A stretch of DNA of 64,000 bases from Hyphomicrobium sp. GTDB lineage: Bacteria; Pseudomonadota; Alphaproteobacteria; Rhizobiales; Hyphomicrobiaceae. Location: positions 1 to 64,000 of the forward strand of contig JANXVY010000056.1 in NCBI GenBank assembly GCA_025351425.1, given 5' to 3'. The position numbers were made by a program, and so were the translations under genes. Shown here piece after piece: positions 21,955-33,108 of the stretch. Every line of letters begins with the position of its first letter. Within the stretch, counting starts at the first letter, position 1. Under the pieces are notes generated by a model that was given only the letters and a program-made list of their open reading frames with translations, was not told the DNA's origin and made no database searches.

Positions 21955-22794
21955 ATGCTGATCTCCGTCCGCCACGTCACCCGGTATACCTACGATGCTC
22001 CGGCGCGCTATGCGATCCTGTCGCTGCGCCTGCAGCCGCCGGTCTTTGCTGGCCAAAGCGTCCAGTCCTGGACCATCAGCGCGCCCGGCATCGAAAAGGC
22101 GCTCCGTTTCACTGACGGATTTGGCAATTCGGTCGCACTCGTTGCTATCAAAGACGAGCATACTGAGATTGAAATCGTCGCCGAAGGCGTTGTTGAAACG
22201 GTTGATTGCACCGGCGTCGTCCGCGGCCTGAAGGAAGCGGCGCCCGTGCGCATCTACCTGCGCAACACGCCCGCAACGCTAGCCGATGCGGCGATCAAGG
22301 AATTGGCGGCCGAAACGCCGGCCGAAAAGGGCGGCCTCGCCCGCCTTCATGCGCTGATGGACATCATCCGCGACCGCGTCGAGTACGAAACCGGCACCAC
22401 CTCGCCGCTGACGACCGCAGCCGAAGTGCTGGAACAAGGCCGCGGCGTCTGCCAGGACCACGCCCATGTGTTCATCGCCGCAGCCCGCGTGTTGGGCTTT
22501 CCTGCCCGTTACATCAACGGCTACTTCCTGTCGGGCGCAGCCCAGCCAGAATTGGCTCACCACGCCTGGGCCGAAGCCCACGTCGATCACCTGGGCTGGG
22601 TCGGCTTCGATGTCGCCAATCGCGTCTGCCCCGACGACCGCTACGTGCGCCTTGCTGTCGGCCTAGATTCCGCAACCGCAAGCCCTATCCGTGGCAGCCG
22701 CCCGTTGCCCCTTGGCACCTCCCACGTCGAAGAACGCCTTGACGTCTCCGTCGAAGTCCACCAGCAACAGCAGCAGAAAATGCAGCAGCAATAA
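21955..22794 (+). CDS. Transglutaminase-like cysteine protease, Anbu cluster
   Basis: This 279-residue protein has the bacterial transglutaminase N-terminal beta domain (about 1-90) and the core with catalytic C166 in GRGVCQDHAH, H203 in HHAWAEA and D219 in GFDVAN. Such proteins are generally peptidases or amidases rather than cross-linkers. It ends in a short Gln-rich tail. It follows the alpha-E gene by 17 bp and belongs to the same unit. No signal peptide is present, so it acts in the cytoplasm. Confidence 0.92.
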   Translation: MLISVRHVTRYTYDAPARYAILSLRLQPPVFAGQSVQSWTISAPGIEKALRFTDGFGNSVALVAIKDEHTEIEIVAEGVVETVDCTGVVRGLKEAAPVRIYLRNTPATLADAAIKELAAETPAEKGGLARLHALMDIIRDRVEYETGTTSPLTTAAEVLEQGRGVCQDHAHVFIAAARVLGFPARYINGYFLSGAAQPELAHHAWAEAHVDHLGWVGFDVANRVCPDDRYVRLAVGLDSATASPIRGSRPLPLGTSHVEERLDVSVEVHQQQQQKMQQQ

Positions 22795-22803
22795 TTCCCG
22801 CGA

Positions 22804-22860
22804 GAGTGCTTCCGGGAAAAGTGTGCAGCGGTTTTCCCGGACGAAGCACGACAAAACAAA
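22804..22860. repeat. RIME-like palindromic repeat, copy 1
   Basis: Nested arms are GTGCTTC/GAAGCAC (22806-22812 and 22843-22849) and CCGGGAAAA/TTTTCCCGG (22812-22820 and 22832-22840), around a GTGTGCAGCG loop. Two related copies stand in tandem at 37620-37740. The sequence matches the palindromic intergenic repeats common in Hyphomicrobiales. It lies in the gap before the Anbu gene and may act as a transcript hairpin. Confidence 0.75.
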
Positions 22861-22924
22861 AAACCGGGGTCTTTCCGTGCTTCATTCAATTCCGGCAAGG
22901 CCCTAGTTCCGGAGATTTCGTCAA

Positions 22925-23656
22925 ATGACGTATGGCGTCGCGCTGCGCTTGGAGCGCGGACTTGTATTCGGTGCCGATACCCGCACCAATGCGGGCATCG
23001 ACAACATCGCCCAATATCGCAAGCTGCAGTTCTGGCGCAAACCCGGCGAACGGGTGATCGTGCTGCTGGCGGCGGGCAACCTGGCCGTCACCCAGTCGGT
23101 GGTCAGCCTGATCAACGAGCAGCTGTCCTCAGGTGAACCCGATCAGCCGAACTTGCTCAATCAGCCGAGCATGTTCCGCGTCGCCCGCCACATTGGCGAT
23201 ATCATCCGCAGGGTCCGCGAAACCGATGGCCCCTCGCTGGAAGCCAGCAAATCAGGTTTCAACGCCAGCTTCATCCTTGGCGGCCAGATCGGCAGCGAGC
23301 GGCCGACGCTGTTCCAGATCTATGCCGAGGGCAACTTCATCGAGGCCTCCGACGACACGCCGTTCTTCCAGATCGGCGAACACAAATACGGCAAGCCGAT
23401 TTTGGACCGTGTGGCTCAACCCAAGATGCGGTTGGGAGAGGCCGCCAAGTTGATGCTGCTGTCGTTTGATTCGACGTTGCGTTCGAACCTCTCCGTCGGC
23501 ATGCCGATCGATATCCTGATCTACGAACGCGACAGCCTCGACGTCCGCCGCGAGAAGCGCATCGAGGATGACGACGAGTATTTCAAGAAGCTTTCGGCTG
23601 CCTGGTCGGACGCGTTGCGGCAGGCCTTCGCCAAGATCGACGAGTTCAAGGTCTGA
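22925..23656 (+). CDS. anbu: Anbu, proteasome-like protease
   Basis: This 243-residue protein is a bacterial beta-type proteasome relative. It starts MTYGVALRLERGLVFGADTR: after Met removal Thr2 would be the N-terminal nucleophile, with D18 and K33 in the usual supporting positions. Anbu assembles into open helical rings without a known ATPase partner. Its place after the ATP-grasp, alpha-E and transglutaminase genes is the classic Anbu gene set, proposed to make and recycle a peptide-type modification; the substrate is unknown. GGAG lies nine bases before the ATG. A 130-bp gap with a palindromic repeat separates it from the transglutaminase gene. Confidence 0.92.
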   Translation: MTYGVALRLERGLVFGADTRTNAGIDNIAQYRKLQFWRKPGERVIVLLAAGNLAVTQSVVSLINEQLSSGEPDQPNLLNQPSMFRVARHIGDIIRRVRETDGPSLEASKSGFNASFILGGQIGSERPTLFQIYAEGNFIEASDDTPFFQIGEHKYGKPILDRVAQPKMRLGEAAKLMLLSFDSTLRSNLSVGMPIDILIYERDSLDVRREKRIEDDDEYFKKLSAAWSDALRQAFAKIDEFKV

Positions 23657-25574: not shown

Positions 25575-28500
25575 CTAATTGAACCGCGGCTTATCGCTGC
25601 CGTTCTGCGGCAGCGAGGCGTGCGAGGCCGGCGGAATTTGGAGCGCTCGGCCCAGATGCTGCCACGCGGCTTCCGAATTGCGCGGATTGTCCACCAGCGC
25701 AGCCCGCAGCTGCTTGGCCGAGTGCAGCAGTCCGCGATGCGACGGTGAAAGCGCGCCCTCCGCCTCGGCCGGCTCGAGCTGTTCGATCAACTCGCTCAAC
25801 ACCTGCTCGTACTGCCCGCCCGGCATCAGCATCAGGATCGACCAGTTCTGATGCACTTCCTGATAGGCGTCCTTCAACAGCTGCCCGTTGTGCGTATCGT
25901 CCGGCCGAAGCGAGCGCTGGAGCTTTTCGAGCGCGCGTTCGACGCGCACGCTTGCCTGCTCGTCGCGCGCAATGAACTCCTCATCGAGGTCCCGGTGATC
26001 GCGGCGCAGGTCCGCCAGCGCGTCGGCCGCAATCAGCGCCGCACTGAAGGCTGAATCGGGCAGATTGAGATAAGCCTCGGGACGCACTCCGAGCGCGGAA
26101 ATGAGCGCCGTGATGAAATCCCGGCTTGAGGCGGCGGCGTTGGCCGTCAGGAAAAGCGGCAGATCTTCGGCCTTCTTGGCAGGCTCGGCATTCGGCAGCG
26201 AGCGCTGCTGCGGTTGGGCTGCCAGAATGGGTGTATCGGACTGCAGCACGCCGCCCTCGATGACGCCGCCGGACTTGCGATGATCGAGTTCGGCGAAGAA
26301 CCGCGCACGGCTCGCCTGGAAACCTTGCGGATCGGCATCGCTGTGCGCAAGCAAGGTCTGCAATGCGTGCACGAAGTCCGGCCGGAAATAATAGCGGCCC
26401 TTTTCCGACTTGTCCGGCACGATGGCGCCCGTGGTAGCCCCCGCGTTGATCACCCTCTTGATGATGCGGGCGTCATAGGCCTCGATCCGGCTGGTCAGCG
26501 CGGCCAGCGAAACCTCCGACGTGAAACCGTCTGTGGGCTTGATGGGGTGCAAGTGGTTGATGACGAGATCTGCGTGCTCGTGCACATGCGGCTTCAACGC
26601 GATCGAAACCACTTGTTCGAGCCGCGCCTGCTGCGCAATCGACTTGTCGGCCTTGAAGTGGCGTTCACAAACGCACGACAGGTATTCGCGCAGTTCGCTG
26701 CGCACGCGATAGTAATCCGGCGTGGTTGCGTGGGCTTCGACCGCATGAATGTCGGCTCCCGCCGTCAGTACGCCGCGAATCCGGTCGGCGGTCAATCGGT
26801 CGGCGCCGCGCAAATCGATTACGGCGGAGAACCCATCCGTATTGGTGATCGGCCGCATCGCGTTCAGCACCAACACAGCTGTCTCATAGGGCAGCTTCCC
26901 GAGCGCGGCGTTGATCGTGGCTTCGAGCTGCTGTGCAGACCGCGCCTTGCTGCTGGGCACATCCGACAGCGGCGAGCGTACAGCATTGGCGCCAAACAGA
27001 CCCGACATGAACACGAGGCTGTCGATCGCGATGGCAATCGCGAGCGCGAGATACGCCAGCCGGTTGCCGTCCTGGAACGCATTCCAAGTCACCACGAACC
27101 GGTGGGCCTTGTCGTCGCGCGCCAGTTCGATTCCGTTGATCTTGGTGCGCAGCGAGTCGGTTTCCTTCGACGGCAGCCCGCTGTCGGCAAGACACTTGCG
27201 AGCAAACCCGAATAGCGCATCCGCCGAAGTGTACTGGTTGAGCTTGTCGCCGCCCTTGCAGGTCTGGTTGAACGTCTCCGTGCCCGCATTCAGCGCGAAC
27301 ACAACGGAGGCAGCTTCCGCAGCCTGCTTGGGATCGCAATCGATCGCCGCCACCGCCTTCTTGGTCTGCGGTGTGGCCGTTGCCATCGCGGTATAGATTT
27401 GCGCGCACAGCTGCTGCACCTCCGCAAGACCCTTGACCGTCGGGTCCTGCCGGAAATTCGCCCGCGCGTTTTCAAACGTCGGAATGATGCGCGACGGGTC
27501 GATACGCTGACCGGCTTCGCTCGGCAGTTGTTCCTGGGTCAGCTTGATGCGCTGTTCGGCAGTCTCAGCTTCGCCCTTGAGCTTTGCGAGATCGCCGTCG
27601 AGCGTCGACTGCTCGCGTTCGATCTGGGTAATCCGGGTTTCGGTGACAGCCAGGCGCTTCTTGGCGTCGTTCGAGCGTTCCTCGGCGATCTTGATCGCAG
27701 CCTGCAACTTGGCCAGTTCGTCCATCCGCAACCGGTAGATAGGTCCGTGGCCTTCCTTGCCGGTGCCCTCCACGCCGCCGGCTTCCGCCATCGCTTCGAC
27801 GCGCTTCGCGTCGGTCTCTTTGATCTTGGCGTCGAGATCGGCCTTTTTCTGCGCGTGTTCAGCAGCAAGTTGCGGCCGGTCGGCCTTGAGCCGCGACAGC
27901 TCTTCACCGAGCGCCAGCTTGCGCCCGGCAAGACCCGCCTGCCCGCCCTGCGCGGTGCTCATGCGCTCTTGTTGCTGCTTGATGGCGCGGTTGCGTTCTT
28001 CGAGCTGGTCGCTCCAGTACTTGTCGATCGTCGCTGACGCGCTGCGCGCCTGTTCAAGCAGCTGGTCGGTCTGCTTTTCATAAGCAAGCCAACCCGGCGT
28101 GTGGAACAACGCCTGCGCCTCTTCCAGGCGGCCGTCGGTGATTTTGGTCTCGATGTCGGCGACAATGCCCGCCACCTGGTTTTGCGCCCGCAACTCGGCC
28201 GCGCGCACACGTTCAGATTGCGGGAAGATCGCGGTGAACAGGCTGTCGAACGAAAAGAACACAGACGTGGCCATGCACGACAGGAACATGACCCAAAGCA
28301 CGGAATTCTTGATGATGACTCGCCCGCTCTGCAAGTAGGGCCGGACAAGATCCGACGCCGCGTAGATCGCGATGAGGACGACCATCAAAAGCCCGGTCGC
28401 GATGATGAGCAGCTTATCGGAAAACTTCGACCAGCTGGCACCCGTCACCACAGCCGAACGCGTATCGACCACGCTACTCGATTGCAGGAAGAACACCGCG

Positions 28501-29042
28501 ACCGCGATGAACAGTGCAATGCCGGTAACGGACCCAACGACGTTGGCGACCCACGGTTCCAGCAACGGATCACGCTTGGCGAGCGACGACCGCTGATTCA
28601 TGCCGACGGCGAAACTTTCCCCGATCAGCCATGCCGAAACCAGCATGACGCCCTGAATGCCGAACGTCACCATCATCGAGAGCACGGCTTCGCCGGTGAA
28701 GTTGCGCATCCCGTCCCACGTGGTGTAGCCGGAAGCCAGTGACAGCACGAAGGCGGTGGCCGCCATCAACGCCAGCAACCAATTCGAGAAGAGTGTCTCT
28801 TCCAGGGCATTGTAGATGCGTCCGCGCAGCCGCCACAACAAGCCGGCAATCGACATGAGCACGACACTGGCCAGCGTATAGCTGATGAACGAGCCGGGGT
28901 TCGCGGCAATGGCGCTGCCGACTTGATTGGCGGCAGCCTGCGCTGCCTGCGCCGTGTCGTTTACCTGCGCAGCCGAGGGCGTGGGCACGGCATCGATCGC
29001 GGCGAAAACGCGATCTGCGGTAGCTTTGACGTCCCAACCCAT
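25575..29042 (-). CDS. Large membrane protein with coiled coil, unknown function
   Basis: This 1155-residue protein matches no family I know. Hydrophobic segments lie at about 52-72, 85-110, 118-142, 170-190, 210-232 and 245-265. A charged coiled coil follows over about 280-530 (many Glu, Lys, Gln and Ala). A Cys-containing region (LCAQIY, AIDCDPKQ, TCKGGDK, KCLADSG) may be periplasmic. Another membrane segment near 680-700 precedes a roughly 450-residue cytoplasmic tail with repeated VLNAMRPITNTDGFS and VINHLHPIKPTDGFT units. The start is well fixed: GGAGGATCTT stands just before ATG 29042. It appears monocistronic. The layout suggests an envelope-spanning scaffold or sensor. Confidence 0.85.
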   Translation of the reverse strand: MGWDVKATADRVFAAIDAVPTPSAAQVNDTAQAAQAAANQVGSAIAANPGSFISYTLASVVLMSIAGLLWRLRGRIYNALEETLFSNWLLALMAATAFVLSLASGYTTWDGMRNFTGEAVLSMMVTFGIQGVMLVSAWLIGESFAVGMNQRSSLAKRDPLLEPWVANVVGSVTGIALFIAVAVFFLQSSSVVDTRSAVVTGASWSKFSDKLLIIATGLLMVVLIAIYAASDLVRPYLQSGRVIIKNSVLWVMFLSCMATSVFFSFDSLFTAIFPQSERVRAAELRAQNQVAGIVADIETKITDGRLEEAQALFHTPGWLAYEKQTDQLLEQARSASATIDKYWSDQLEERNRAIKQQQERMSTAQGGQAGLAGRKLALGEELSRLKADRPQLAAEHAQKKADLDAKIKETDAKRVEAMAEAGGVEGTGKEGHGPIYRLRMDELAKLQAAIKIAEERSNDAKKRLAVTETRITQIEREQSTLDGDLAKLKGEAETAEQRIKLTQEQLPSEAGQRIDPSRIIPTFENARANFRQDPTVKGLAEVQQLCAQIYTAMATATPQTKKAVAAIDCDPKQAAEAASVVFALNAGTETFNQTCKGGDKLNQYTSADALFGFARKCLADSGLPSKETDSLRTKINGIELARDDKAHRFVVTWNAFQDGNRLAYLALAIAIAIDSLVFMSGLFGANAVRSPLSDVPSSKARSAQQLEATINAALGKLPYETAVLVLNAMRPITNTDGFSAVIDLRGADRLTADRIRGVLTAGADIHAVEAHATTPDYYRVRSELREYLSCVCERHFKADKSIAQQARLEQVVSIALKPHVHEHADLVINHLHPIKPTDGFTSEVSLAALTSRIEAYDARIIKRVINAGATTGAIVPDKSEKGRYYFRPDFVHALQTLLAHSDADPQGFQASRARFFAELDHRKSGGVIEGGVLQSDTPILAAQPQQRSLPNAEPAKKAEDLPLFLTANAAASSRDFITALISALGVRPEAYLNLPDSAFSAALIAADALADLRRDHRDLDEEFIARDEQASVRVERALEKLQRSLRPDDTHNGQLLKDAYQEVHQNWSILMLMPGGQYEQVLSELIEQLEPAEAEGALSPSHRGLLHSAKQLRAALVDNPRNSEAAWQHLGRALQIPPASHASLPQNGSDKPRFN

Positions 29043-29278
29043 CAAGATCCTCCAACTCGTGCCGTCACGTGTAGCGTAACCTTCGCCATTTTGTCATGCA
29101 CCGCTGAGGAACGCAGGACCATCCGGCAGGTCCTACTGCCGTAACATGCGTCCGCAAGTTGCACGCGTCTACCCGCGCGGCTCTCCAGCCACACTACTAT
29201 GCAACATTCACGATCGTCCTGTCGATTTCCCGGCAAGATTGCGGCTAATCTGCATCCGATTATGGAAAATGTTCGCAT
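29043..29278. other. Gap upstream of the large membrane protein gene
   Basis: Together with the repeat array that follows, this forms a 479-bp stretch without a credible gene. It should hold the promoter of the 1155-residue protein, reading leftwards. I see no clear -10/-35 pair and no RNA gene. Confidence 0.4.
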
Positions 29279-29515
29279 TCAGCGCATCGCGATCAGGCTA
29301 TCGACGGACTTTCCTTTCCGAAAGGATCGCCGTTGCCGCAGCGATGCGCCACCAAGATCAGCGCATCGCGATCCGGCTATCGACGGGCGTTCCCGCCCTG
29401 AAAGTCCGGCAATGCCGCAGCGATGCGCCACCCAGATCAGCGCATCGCGATCCGGCCATCGACGGGCGTTCCCACCCTGAAAGTCCGGCAATGCCGTAGC
29501 GATGCGCGAATAAGG
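29279..29515. repeat. 79-bp tandem repeat, three copies
   Basis: Three units start at 29279, 29358 and 29437. Copies 2 and 3 are almost identical, while copy 1 has diverged in its middle. Each unit opens with GCGCATCGC and closes with GCGATGCGC, its exact reverse complement, so each can fold into its own hairpin. The period is not a multiple of three, and every forward frame is broken up by the shift, so it is not coding. It ends seven bases before the thiolase stop codon. Confidence 0.9.
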
Positions 29516-30709: not shown

Positions 30710-30922
30710 GGCGTACCTGATCCTAATACGCGAACACAAGCACGGCGGCGCGAAGGCTGGTCCCGGCGGTTCCGCCGCTCAAGCCTGCACCACAAAAACG
30801 ATCCGCGCCCACAGACTCGAGTTCGAGTCTCGTTCCCGTTAAGCATGCGATGGTGGCGAAAAGGCGAAGACCGCCGGCAACCTTGGAATGGGACCCAGTA
30901 AAAATCTGGCCCGAACCGATAC

Positions 30923-30935
30923 GTTATAATATAAC
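30923..30935. promoter_or_regulatory. Zur-box-like palindrome GTTATAATATAAC
   Basis: Perfect 6-bp arms GTTATA/TATAAC around a central A lie eight bases before the zur ATG. AT-rich GTTATA-type palindromes are the usual Zur operator in alphaproteobacteria. The site also contains TATAAT, so Zur binding would cover the promoter of its own operon. Confidence 0.7.
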
Positions 30936-30942
30936 AATACCT

Positions 30943-31464
30943 ATGACATCGAAAACAACGACACCCCGCAAGCACGCACATCCAGCCTTCCCCGGCCCCG
31001 GTCACAACCACGTCGCCTGCCTGTCGCAGACGCTCGACCGCGCGAAGTCGGCTTTTGAAACCCGCGGTCTGCGGCTGACTGATCTGCGGCTGCGCGTATT
31101 CACCGAGATCGCGGCCTCCCATCACGCGATGGGCGCCTATGACATCATCGAGCGGTTGGGCGCCAAGGGCACGCGGCTGGCGCCCGTCAGCGTTTACCGC
31201 GCCATCGAGGCGTTAACGGCAGCCGGCGTCGTCCACCGGCTGGAAAGCGCGAACGCCTATTTCGCCTGTCACGCGGCCCACGCGAGCCAGCGCCAGCACA
31301 TTGTGTTGTCGTGCCGGACCTGCCGGACGATCGCGGAAGTCGCAGCCGAAGCCGTGTTCGACGCTATCGAAGACATCGCAAGCGTCCACGGTTTCAAGGC
31401 CGATACGCGGATCGTCGAAATTTCGGGCCTTTGCGCCCACTGTGTCGAGAAGGCCTCGCAATGA
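30943..31464 (+). CDS. zur: Zinc uptake regulator, Fur family
   Basis: This 173-residue repressor has the Fur winged-helix domain (RGLRLTDLRLRVFTEI, then VSVYRAIEALTAAGVVHRLES) and a dimerisation domain with the structural zinc cysteines CRTC and CAHC. It should bind DNA when zinc is replete and shut off zinc import. The gene heads a zur-znuC-znuB operon; its stop overlaps the znuC start (ATGA). A Zur-like box lies directly before it, implying autoregulation. ATG 30943 has no Shine-Dalgarno sequence and is close to the promoter, so a leaderless or very short-leader mRNA is likely. Confidence 0.9.
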   Translation: MTSKTTTPRKHAHPAFPGPGHNHVACLSQTLDRAKSAFETRGLRLTDLRLRVFTEIAASHHAMGAYDIIERLGAKGTRLAPVSVYRAIEALTAAGVVHRLESANAYFACHAAHASQRQHIVLSCRTCRTIAEVAAEAVFDAIEDIASVHGFKADTRIVEISGLCAHCVEKASQ

Positions 31465-32315
31465 CACCCCACGACGCCCAGCAACCCCATCATCACGACT
31501 GCGGGCATGATCACGGGCCTGCAGCCGTGGCCGCCGCATTCGACCCCAACGCCCTGCTGTCGGGACGCGGGATCACCGTTGTGAAGAGCGGACGGACGCT
31601 GTTGTCGGGCATCGATATTGCTCTCCACGCGGGCGAAATCGTCACCCTCATCGGACCCAATGGCGCCGGCAAGACGACGCTCGTGCGCACGCTGCTCGGA
31701 CTTGAAACACCGAACTCGGGAGATCTGGTCCGCAAACCGGGCTTGATCGTCGGCTATGTCCCACAGCGGTTCGACGTCGACCGCACCATTCCGCTGACCG
31801 TCGCCCGCTTTCTGAACCTCGGACTGAGCAAGACCGACAGCGAAACCGATGCGGTGCTCGATGACGTGGGGGCTTTGCGTGTACGCGGCTCCCAGGTCGC
31901 CAACCTGTCGGGCGGCGAATTGCAACGCGTGGTGCTCGCGCGCGCCCTGCTGCGCGGCCCGCAGCTGCTGGTGCTCGACGAACCCGCGCGCGGCGTCGAT
32001 CACATCGGCGAGGCGGATCTGTACGCGCTGATTTCGCGCCTGCGCGACACCCGCGGATTCGGCGTGCTGCTCGTCTCGCACGACCTGCACATCGTGATGG
32101 CCAACTCCGACCGCGTAATCTGCATCAACCGACACGTCTGCTGTTCGGGCCACCCCGAAGCGGTTGCGCGCCATCCCGAATATGCGCGCCTGTTCGGCGA
32201 CGACGCCGCCCGCGCGTTCGCCGTCTACACCCACCATCACGACCACGAGCACGACATGGCGGGCAAGCCTATCGACAAGGCAACAGCACCATCGGCGGAG
32301 CCAAAGCGTGTTTGA
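31461..32315 (+). CDS. znuC: Zinc ABC transporter ATP-binding protein
   Basis: This 284-residue ATPase powers zinc import. Walker A is GPNGAGKTT, the signature is LSGGE and Walker B is LLVLDEPARGVD, followed by the switch SHD. His-rich stretches at both ends (HHHDCGHDHG and HHHDHEHD) could bind zinc, a trait seen in zinc-related proteins. The start overlaps the zur stop as ATGA, and the stop overlaps the znuB start, so the three genes are translationally coupled. Confidence 0.93.
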   Translation: MTPHDAQQPHHHDCGHDHGPAAVAAAFDPNALLSGRGITVVKSGRTLLSGIDIALHAGEIVTLIGPNGAGKTTLVRTLLGLETPNSGDLVRKPGLIVGYVPQRFDVDRTIPLTVARFLNLGLSKTDSETDAVLDDVGALRVRGSQVANLSGGELQRVVLARALLRGPQLLVLDEPARGVDHIGEADLYALISRLRDTRGFGVLLVSHDLHIVMANSDRVICINRHVCCSGHPEAVARHPEYARLFGDDAARAFAVYTHHHDHEHDMAGKPIDKATAPSAEPKRV

Positions 32316-33108
32316 ACCCTTTTTCCTGCGCGCGCTCGCGGCCGGCATCGGCCTGGCGATCATCGCGGCTCCCTTGGGCTGCATCGTCGTGTGGCGGCGC
32401 ATGGCCTATTTCGGCGAGACCATCGCGCAGGCGAGCTTGATCGGCATCGCGTTGGGCCTCGCCTTGCAGGTCAACCTTACGGTTGCCGTACTGCTGACGG
32501 CCACCGCCGTCGCCTTGCTGCTGATCGGGCTCGGCAAGCAGACGCTGATCCCCATGGACAGCCTGCTGGGGCTGCTGCACCACGCAGCGCTCGCCGCCGG
32601 CATCATCGCCACCGCCTCGTTGAAGGGCCCCGCCGTCGATCTTGTCGGTTACCTGTTCGGCGACGTACTTTCGGTGACGGTCGAAGACCTGTGGTGGGTG
32701 TACGGCGGCGGGGCGGTCGTGCTGGCCGCCCTCGCGTACCTCTGGCAGCCGCTGCTCCGCATCTCGATCCACCAGGAACTGGCGGCGGCCGAAGGCATTC
32801 CCGCCGAGCGCGTCCGCATGGCGTTCACGCTGCTGCTGGCGCTGACGATTGCGCTCGCCATGAAGATCGTCGGCGCGCTGCTGGCGATTGCGTTCCTGAT
32901 CGTGCCCGCCATCGCGGCCCGCGCGTTCGCCTCGACCGCCGAGCGCATGGCGATCCTCTCCGCCGCCATCGCCGCAGGCAGCGTGGTCGCGGGCCTGATG
33001 CTGTCGAGCGTGTATGACGTTCCAAGCGGCCCCGCGATCGTCCTCGTCATGGCTGGCTGCGCGGTCGGCTCACTCGGCTGGAACGGCCTGCGCGCAGGCC
33101 GCGCGTAA
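32308..33108 (+). CDS. znuB: Zinc ABC transporter permease
   Basis: This 266-residue inner-membrane permease of the ABC-3 family has eight or nine hydrophobic segments and the conserved start FEPFFLRALAAGIGLAI in pieces. The GTG at 32308 lies inside the last codons of znuC, with GGAG seven bases before it. The periplasmic zinc-binding partner ZnuA is not in this operon or elsewhere in the window, so it must be encoded at another locus. Confidence 0.92.
   Translation: MFEPFFLRALAAGIGLAIIAAPLGCIVVWRRMAYFGETIAQASLIGIALGLALQVNLTVAVLLTATAVALLLIGLGKQTLIPMDSLLGLLHHAALAAGIIATASLKGPAVDLVGYLFGDVLSVTVEDLWWVYGGGAVVLAALAYLWQPLLRISIHQELAAAEGIPAERVRMAFTLLLALTIALAMKIVGALLAIAFLIVPAIAARAFASTAERMAILSAAIAAGSVVAGLMLSSVYDVPSGPAIVLVMAGCAVGSLGWNGLRAGRA

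Follow-up and report, generated by a model that had tools for sequence, protein, structure and literature searches.

A conserved membrane and coiled-coil protein of Hyphomicrobium with a glycine-rich hairpin tip, four invariant cysteines, and a duplicated tail unit

RESULTS

A conserved 1155-codon gene on the minus strand

The window analyzed here is a stretch of 64,000 nucleotides (nt) from Hyphomicrobium sp. (assembly GCA_025351425.1, contig JANXVY010000056.1, positions 1 to 64,000), and its subject is a gene at 25575-29042 that encodes a 1155-residue protein, P0001. A prediction made from the sequence alone had assigned this interval to a membrane and coiled-coil protein of unknown family. 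The coordinates were exact, and the strand can be added: plus-strand translation of 25575-29042 meets 6 stops, while the minus-strand open reading frame (ORF) runs from an ATG at 29042 through 1155 codons to a TAG at 25577-25575. The strong start and ribosome binding site of the original prediction are borne out by a GGAGG lying 6 nt before the ATG. The gene and the segments of its product are as follows (TM, membrane segment; conservation in parentheses where it defines the segment).

25575..29042, minus strand: whole gene, 1155 codons plus stop (ORF and translation, homologues)
29049..29053, minus strand: ribosome binding site GGAGG, 6 nt before the ATG (sequence)
28830..28895, minus strand: TM1, residues 50-71, poorly conserved (hydropathy and model; 0.41)
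28602..28781, minus strand: TM2-TM3 and loop TTWDGMRNFT, residues 88-147 (0.87)
28356..28556, minus strand: TM4-TM5, residues 163-229, variable (0.35)
28227..28304, minus strand: TM6, residues 247-272, contains D266 (0.80)
27531..28220, minus strand: predicted stalk helix and coiled-coil hairpin, residues 275-504 (model)
27732..27788, minus strand: hairpin tip, residues 419-437, glycine-rich and conserved (0.77)
27105..27500, minus strand: predicted helical domain with four invariant cysteines, residues 515-646 (model, alignment)
26982..27062, minus strand: TM7, residues 661-687, contains D674 (juxtamembrane segment plus TM7, 0.92)
26649..26936, minus strand: winged-helix-like unit 1, residues 703-798, has NTDGF (model, structure matches, profile)
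26343..26645, minus strand: winged-helix-like unit 2, residues 800-900, has PTDGF (model, structure matches, profile)
25635..26144, minus strand: acidic helical bundle, residues 967-1136, fast evolving (model; 0.37)

Distribution of the family

Homologues of P0001 were found by protein search in 39 of 60 relatives, its own genome counted; the same family accounts for 34 of these (36 genomes searched) and the same order for 5 (24 searched). The two same-family genomes that lack a match are both 1.8 Mb, with completeness of 95% and 69%. Named records contributed matches at 61 loci labeled Hyphomicrobium, Filomicrobium, Hyphomicrobiaceae, or something broader, and identity to P0001 is 45% in Hyphomicrobium zavarzinii and 42% in Filomicrobium insigne. 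Because 39 of the 60 relatives have the ORF and named genomes carry it, 25575-29042 is, on the evidence of its homologues, a conserved coding gene. The original prediction of a real expressed gene is supported in so far as the gene is conserved and has a good ribosome site. In wider draws, the profile of the 60-row alignment of P0001 (A1) matched 32 of 297 genomes from the order, in scattered families, and among 337 from the class it matched the source genome only, the other 336 giving no convincing match. Four class-level matches of a more diverse profile (A5; E values of 7e-4 to 1e-3) lay in the coil only and were attributed to chance. Most genomes have one copy. Second, diverged copies or fragments, 36 to 43% identical to P0001, were seen at three places (G001:C443, G017:C285, and G017:C153) in genomes that also carry the main copy.

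A distant group, reached through genome G600 (G, genomes; L, loci), is present in 35 of 37 genomes of one genus, and its profile aligns with the A1 core (hhalign probability [Prob] 97.7, E value of 1.6e-12, 418 columns). In a 14-row alignment that takes in the G600 relatives, the four cysteines, G423, G433, R437, and D674 are invariant and P434 nearly so; the G600 group has threonine at the D266 position. Protein lengths are 736 residues in G600, 811 in L150, 952 in L145, 1100 in L144, and 1327 in L148. The L146 and L151 sequences end at contig ends, and the 1528 residues of L149 include an N-terminal stretch judged spurious. Since tail lengths vary between groups, the comparison indicates that the family is stable in its membrane core and stalk and changeable in its tail. 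The G425 homologue (L143:5229-7391) lies in two adjoining ORFs of 353 and 357 amino acids (aa), with tip GCGPVC, as a genuine split or an assembly error.

No family model in Pfam, NCBIfam, PHROGs, or PADLOC reaches its cut-off on P0001 or covers it, and a PDB sequence search returned no solved relative; to this extent the assignment to an unknown family holds, and what qualifies it is a subthreshold match to DUF4407, along with a similar hairpin tip (below). No description of the 1155-residue protein was found among the open-licence papers searched. Mobile or viral origin was considered and drew no support from plasmid searches with P0001 or the G600 protein, or from a phage collection search with the G600 protein as query, all of which gave no match. 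Viral contig scans with L152 and A1 confirmed none, which is weak evidence given that the scan detects only sequences sharing short peptides.

Seven predicted membrane segments and a conserved core

Both hydropathy and the AlphaFold model place six membrane segments at the N terminus and a seventh at 661-687, in keeping with the "about six" helices plus another helix that had been read from the sequence (the seventh at about 665-683). The whole-protein model has a mean predicted local distance difference test (pLDDT) score of 79.8 and a predicted template modeling (pTM) score of 0.46. Judged by alignment, conservation peaks in the membrane helices TM2-3, TM6, and TM7, in the juxtamembrane segment, and at the tip of the hairpin. 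All 60 rows keep E142, D266, and D674, the last of which is also invariant in the 14-row wider alignment, and C256 in TM6 is kept in 55 of 60 rows.

Short loops predicted to lie inside average about 2.1 to 3.0 lysine and arginine (K/R) residues, and the two short loops predicted outside 0.4 to 1.0. L150 and L156 align without the TM4-5 stretch, and in both a strongly basic loop precedes the stalk-bearing helix. The coil is likely outside and the tail inside, because this loop balance, the basic loop of L150 and L156, and the placing of the invariant cysteines in the outer domain all fit that orientation.

A predicted coiled-coil stalk with a conserved tip and four invariant cysteines

The predicted coiled coil appears in the model as two long helices, 275-422 and 434-504, whose arms each have a conservation of 0.63. 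At the hairpin tip, A419, E420, G423, G431, and G433 are present in 60 of 60 rows, R437 in 59, and P434 in 36. The strict pattern G..G.G[PT].YR was found in no ORF outside the family among 2796 sequences (2777 background ORFs and 19 of the G600 group). Because only 10 of the 60 rows have this exact pattern, the trait of the family is, on this alignment, the broader tip.

The distance from D266 to the tip glycine G431 is 165 residues in all 60 rows, in an alignment where the TM4-5 stretch takes 17 different lengths and the linker 34. Twelve additional sequences, of which three belong to a single genus, gave 165 in seven, 164 in four, and 169 in L148; three of the four counts of 164 depend on reading CGP as starting one residue later.

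The cysteine-containing region of the original prediction corresponds to a helical domain, extending to about residue 657 by hydropathy and the model (conservation, 0.67), in which C546, C569, C595, and C617 are each present in 60 of 60 rows; tail cysteines are kept in 1 and 7 of 60 rows. The four invariant cysteines probably form two disulfides. Structure searches with the whole model (PDB and VIA) returned lists filled by coiled coils.

A duplicated unit in the tail

The two related units noted around NTDGF and PTDGF were compared profile to profile. Unit 1 (698-800) and unit 2 (800-902) aligned with Prob 99.8 and an E value of 4.6e-29 over 93 columns, while three control domain pairs gave Prob 0.2 to 2.0. 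These results indicate that the units are homologous and form a true repeat. Conservation is 0.61 for unit 1 and 0.56 for unit 2, and the bundle that follows has a mean identity to P0001 of 25%.

A profile of the unit matched 97 of the 2796 sequences, the 97 including repeats from the same genome; 94 had two matches above 8 bits and 3 had one. The unit is found twice in L144, L146, L147, L148, L149, L151, L083, and L084 (the second weak in L148 and L151), once in L145 and L143, and marginally in L150.

Folded alone, the tail is modeled with a pLDDT of 88.6, with 372 of 468 residues at 90 or above. Its leading PDB matches by Foldseek and VIA-align are mostly winged-helix regulators (CodY, CooA, PrfA, Bd2879, CzrA/SmtB, and TubR), and the units are predicted to be winged-helix-like. 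In the tail model, helices and wing are ordered and packed in a way that weakly resembles CodY, CRP/PrfA, and CzrA/SmtB; unlike in these regulators, the units are near neutral in charge, are fused to a membrane stalk, and lack a Pfam match. A Pfam scan of the P0001 tail up to an E value of 0.5 found no match and no DNA-binding family, and a BFVD search with the tail found no match below an E value of 0.14. Pfam matches among 60 tail members are scattered over 43 families, with TetR_C_6 in 5 of 60 (best, 2e-4) and the other 24 shown in 1 or 2 of 60 each. Mean net charge is -2.8 for unit 1, -0.8 for unit 2, and -10.7 for the bundle. Direct DNA binding by the tail units is not favored by these sequences, because neither unit has a basic charge and the bundle is acidic.

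Kite subunits of SMC complexes (MukE, ScpB) likewise have two tandem units, and MukE stands low in the match list of the tail (E values of 1.7 to 1.9, marginal); kite subunits, as described, differ from P0001 in not being membrane stalks. An SMC/MukB assignment was rejected, the score being 17.4 bits against a cut-off of 567.35, in the coil region only, with no ABC family match in Pfam.

DUF4407 is the nearest described kind

No described family matched P0001 over its whole length; the one lead, Pfam DUF4407 (PF14362), covers residues 348-488 only, at 22.3 bits and an E value of 9e-5, and does not reach its cut-off of 31.3. At an E value of 0.001, DUF4407 matches occurred in 22 of 60 relatives, several of them in other ORFs, and the cut-off was passed once (G029, 33.8 bits). 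Among control genomes, 2 of 14 gave subthreshold matches; these, together with the matches in other ORFs, indicate that a coiled coil alone can yield such scores. The family is rare, being found in 3 of 249 genomes of a phylum draw (E value of 1e-8) and in 1 of 80 relatives of G762 (E value of 1e-15).

Aligned by hhalign to three DUF4407 rows (L152, L176, and L177; effective number of sequences, 1.8; L176 and L177 are Prevotella phages Lak-A1 and Lak-B5), the A1 core gave Prob 96.6 over 127 columns, all of them coil, with the tips in register and the membrane helices unaligned. The G600 group gave Prob 0.8 against the same rows, which speaks against a simple common family. Both kinds of protein have a coiled-coil hairpin between membrane helices, and in both the final membrane helix bears an acidic residue, which we read as IE in DUF4407 and ID in P0001. 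Their tips are GKRGIGPIYR in L152 and GIAGHGTIYR in a Lak phage (both DUF4407) and GKEGHGPIYR in P0001. P0001 thus has the GxGP-type tip that we took, by our own reading of three sequences, as a DUF4407 feature; the two phage rows have GxGT. Because coiled coils inflate scores, the tip is the part of this likeness that we trust. P0001 differs in its longer stalk, four-cysteine domain, extra membrane helices, and 468-residue tail, and the DUF4407 proteins examined have about 395 to 541 residues. On these sequences DUF4407 is the nearest described kind, and P0001 is not filed there. In the open-licence papers searched, DUF4407 is mentioned in table lines only, none of them on function.

Fifteen Lak phage records encode a DUF4407-like protein, of which L176 and L177 are readable in one frame with TAG as Q. 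In G762 (L152 and L155), three membrane/coil ORFs of 347, 448, and 464 aa adjoin on one strand, and two of them pass the DUF4407 cut-off.

Genomic neighborhood

In the window, the gene is preceded on its own strand by a thiolase gene and, farther upstream on the opposite strand, by zur; downstream of it is a convergent FAA hydrolase gene. The same neighbors recur in relatives, where thiolase was seen in at least 34 of 70 loci, zur in at least 40, and FAA hydrolase in at least 30, these being lower bounds because many loci are truncated; thiolase is 140 to 1428 bp upstream in 31 loci, zur is divergent in 39, and FAA hydrolase is convergent in 30. This set looks like a stable chromosome order, with no proven operon. 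The neighbors of the distant members L142 and L150 gave no Pfam lead on function.

A perfect Zur box, GTTATAATATAAC, was found at 30923-30935, near the start of zur (ORF 30850-31464), which is followed by znuC (31311-32315) and znuB (32164-33108). Boxes were scored against the Zur consensus, and by this measure the interval between the P0001 gene and the thiolase gene has no box, its best score being 7 of 13 positions. Zinc (Zur) control of the P0001 gene was rejected for the window, where the only perfect box lies before zur and none lies between the gene and thiolase. Among the 39 loci with divergent zur, its start is within 600 bp in 15, and 6 of these 15 have an intervening Zur-like box of at least 11 of 13; in a shuffle control of one locus (L037), 1 of 300 reached 11. 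Shared Zur control may exist at those 6 loci.

Three tandem copies of a 79-nt unit, with 100, 81, and 75% identity to the first, occupy 29279-29515 between the gene and thiolase. In the same genome, the 19-base core of this unit occurs exactly at these three places only and at 11 places with at most 2 mismatches. Elsewhere in the window (21955-23656), an ORF that we read from its sequence as transglutaminase-like adjoins a proteasome-type hydrolase (PF00227).

DISCUSSION

Computation directly established the gene and its conservation, the repeat, the tip and cysteines as conserved features, and the order of segments, and the anatomy of P0001 is well supported. Its topology and the winged-helix likeness of its tail units are predicted; its function, contact with a partner, and signaling with its direction are what we infer from that anatomy. 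The reading we tentatively favor is that P0001 is an inner-membrane stalk protein through which a winged-helix-like platform in the cytosol is coupled to the state of the envelope. The conserved membrane core of TM2, TM3, TM6, and TM7 would carry a helical stalk outwards, ending in a coiled-coil hairpin with the conserved glycine-rich tip, and the four-cysteine domain would close the base of the stalk and lead into TM7. The tip may contact a partner located in the periplasm, in the peptidoglycan layer, or at the outer membrane, and the state of this contact would be conveyed by way of the cysteine domain, the conserved RDDKAHRFVVTWNAF segment, and TM7 into the cytosol, where the two winged-helix-like units and the helical bundle would recruit or regulate a partner. 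The envelope-spanning scaffold or large sensor of the original prediction fits the predicted topology and the peaks of conservation; in that proposal, the reach of the stalk to the outer membrane and the function are putative.

Several points weigh against this reading. The neighborhood shows no operon that is informative on the function of P0001. Fold comparison of the tail gives weak matches (best E value, 0.063; best Z, 6.1 over 85 to 92 residues), below the safe level of the tool, which warns that at such Z a likeness may be merely a common arrangement. The unit profile matched 0 of 19 sequences of the G600 group. At the pTM of the whole model, the height and shape of the stalk can be read only tentatively, and the outer juxtamembrane stretches 273-285 and 643-661 carry 3.4 and 2.8 K/R, which the positive-inside rule disfavors. 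A fixed arm length is also not peculiar to this stalk. In an SMC control (30 loci listed of 58 genomes with a match, from the same 60 relatives), one shared length was held by 23 to 28 of 30 across most coil windows, by 16 to 19 in windows with the hinge, and by 19 in the last windows. The constant 165 residues do not prove a molecular ruler, because coiled arms generally resist changes in length; weakened by this control, they are at most a mild sign of fixed reach.

The main rival, which we consider somewhat unlikely, is a passive tether or scaffold, in which the stalk links the inner membrane to peptidoglycan or the outer membrane, the tail offers a platform for docking, and no signal passes. 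Its anatomy would be identical to that of the favored reading, and the fast divergence of the tail (25% mean identity in the bundle), with lengths that differ between groups, is what a changeable platform might display. However, conservation is highest in the membrane helices and the juxtamembrane segment (0.80 to 0.92), beyond what a mere anchor needs.

A more specific form of envelope-cytosol coupling, in which a stalk of fixed length has its tip docked on a peptidoglycan or outer membrane partner and the tandem winged-helix units relay this contact to transcription or the nucleoid, is in our view distinctly unlikely. The lineage includes budding, hypha-forming bacteria.

Next among the rivals is a membrane-bound transcription regulator whose two winged-helix-like units bind DNA directly, in the one-component manner of ToxR and CadC. 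The nearest folds of the units are indeed DNA-binding regulators, but with units near neutral to slightly acidic beside an acidic bundle, weak fold matches, and a tail without a Pfam DNA-binding family, this appears improbable. ToxR and CadC have an N-terminal OmpR-type winged helix and a single membrane helix; P0001 has no such Pfam match and seven membrane segments, and a regulator of that type was rejected.

An ion- or substrate-conducting complex, with E142, D266, and D674 as its working site and the coil as conduit or plug, as is described for the coiled coil of MmpL5 that likewise stands out from the inner membrane, is very improbable: the invariance of these residues and the very high conservation of the core are set against the lack of any transporter family by sequence in Pfam (RND included), NCBIfam, or PDB, an MmpL5 structure match at an E value of only 0.11, and the replacement of D266 in the G600 group.

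P0001 is a 1155-residue protein with a very conserved membrane core that is near-universal in its family and lies outside all four family libraries searched. If the proposed coupling of envelope and cytosol is true, it would give Hyphomicrobium and its kin a one-protein route of envelope sensing. If docking of the tip is in addition relayed to transcription or the nucleoid, P0001 would represent a novel class of transducer in which one protein links envelope and cytosol, and DUF4407 would be its relative with a short stalk. The common hairpin tip also offers a first handle on what DUF4407 proteins, those of the Lak megaphages included, may do.

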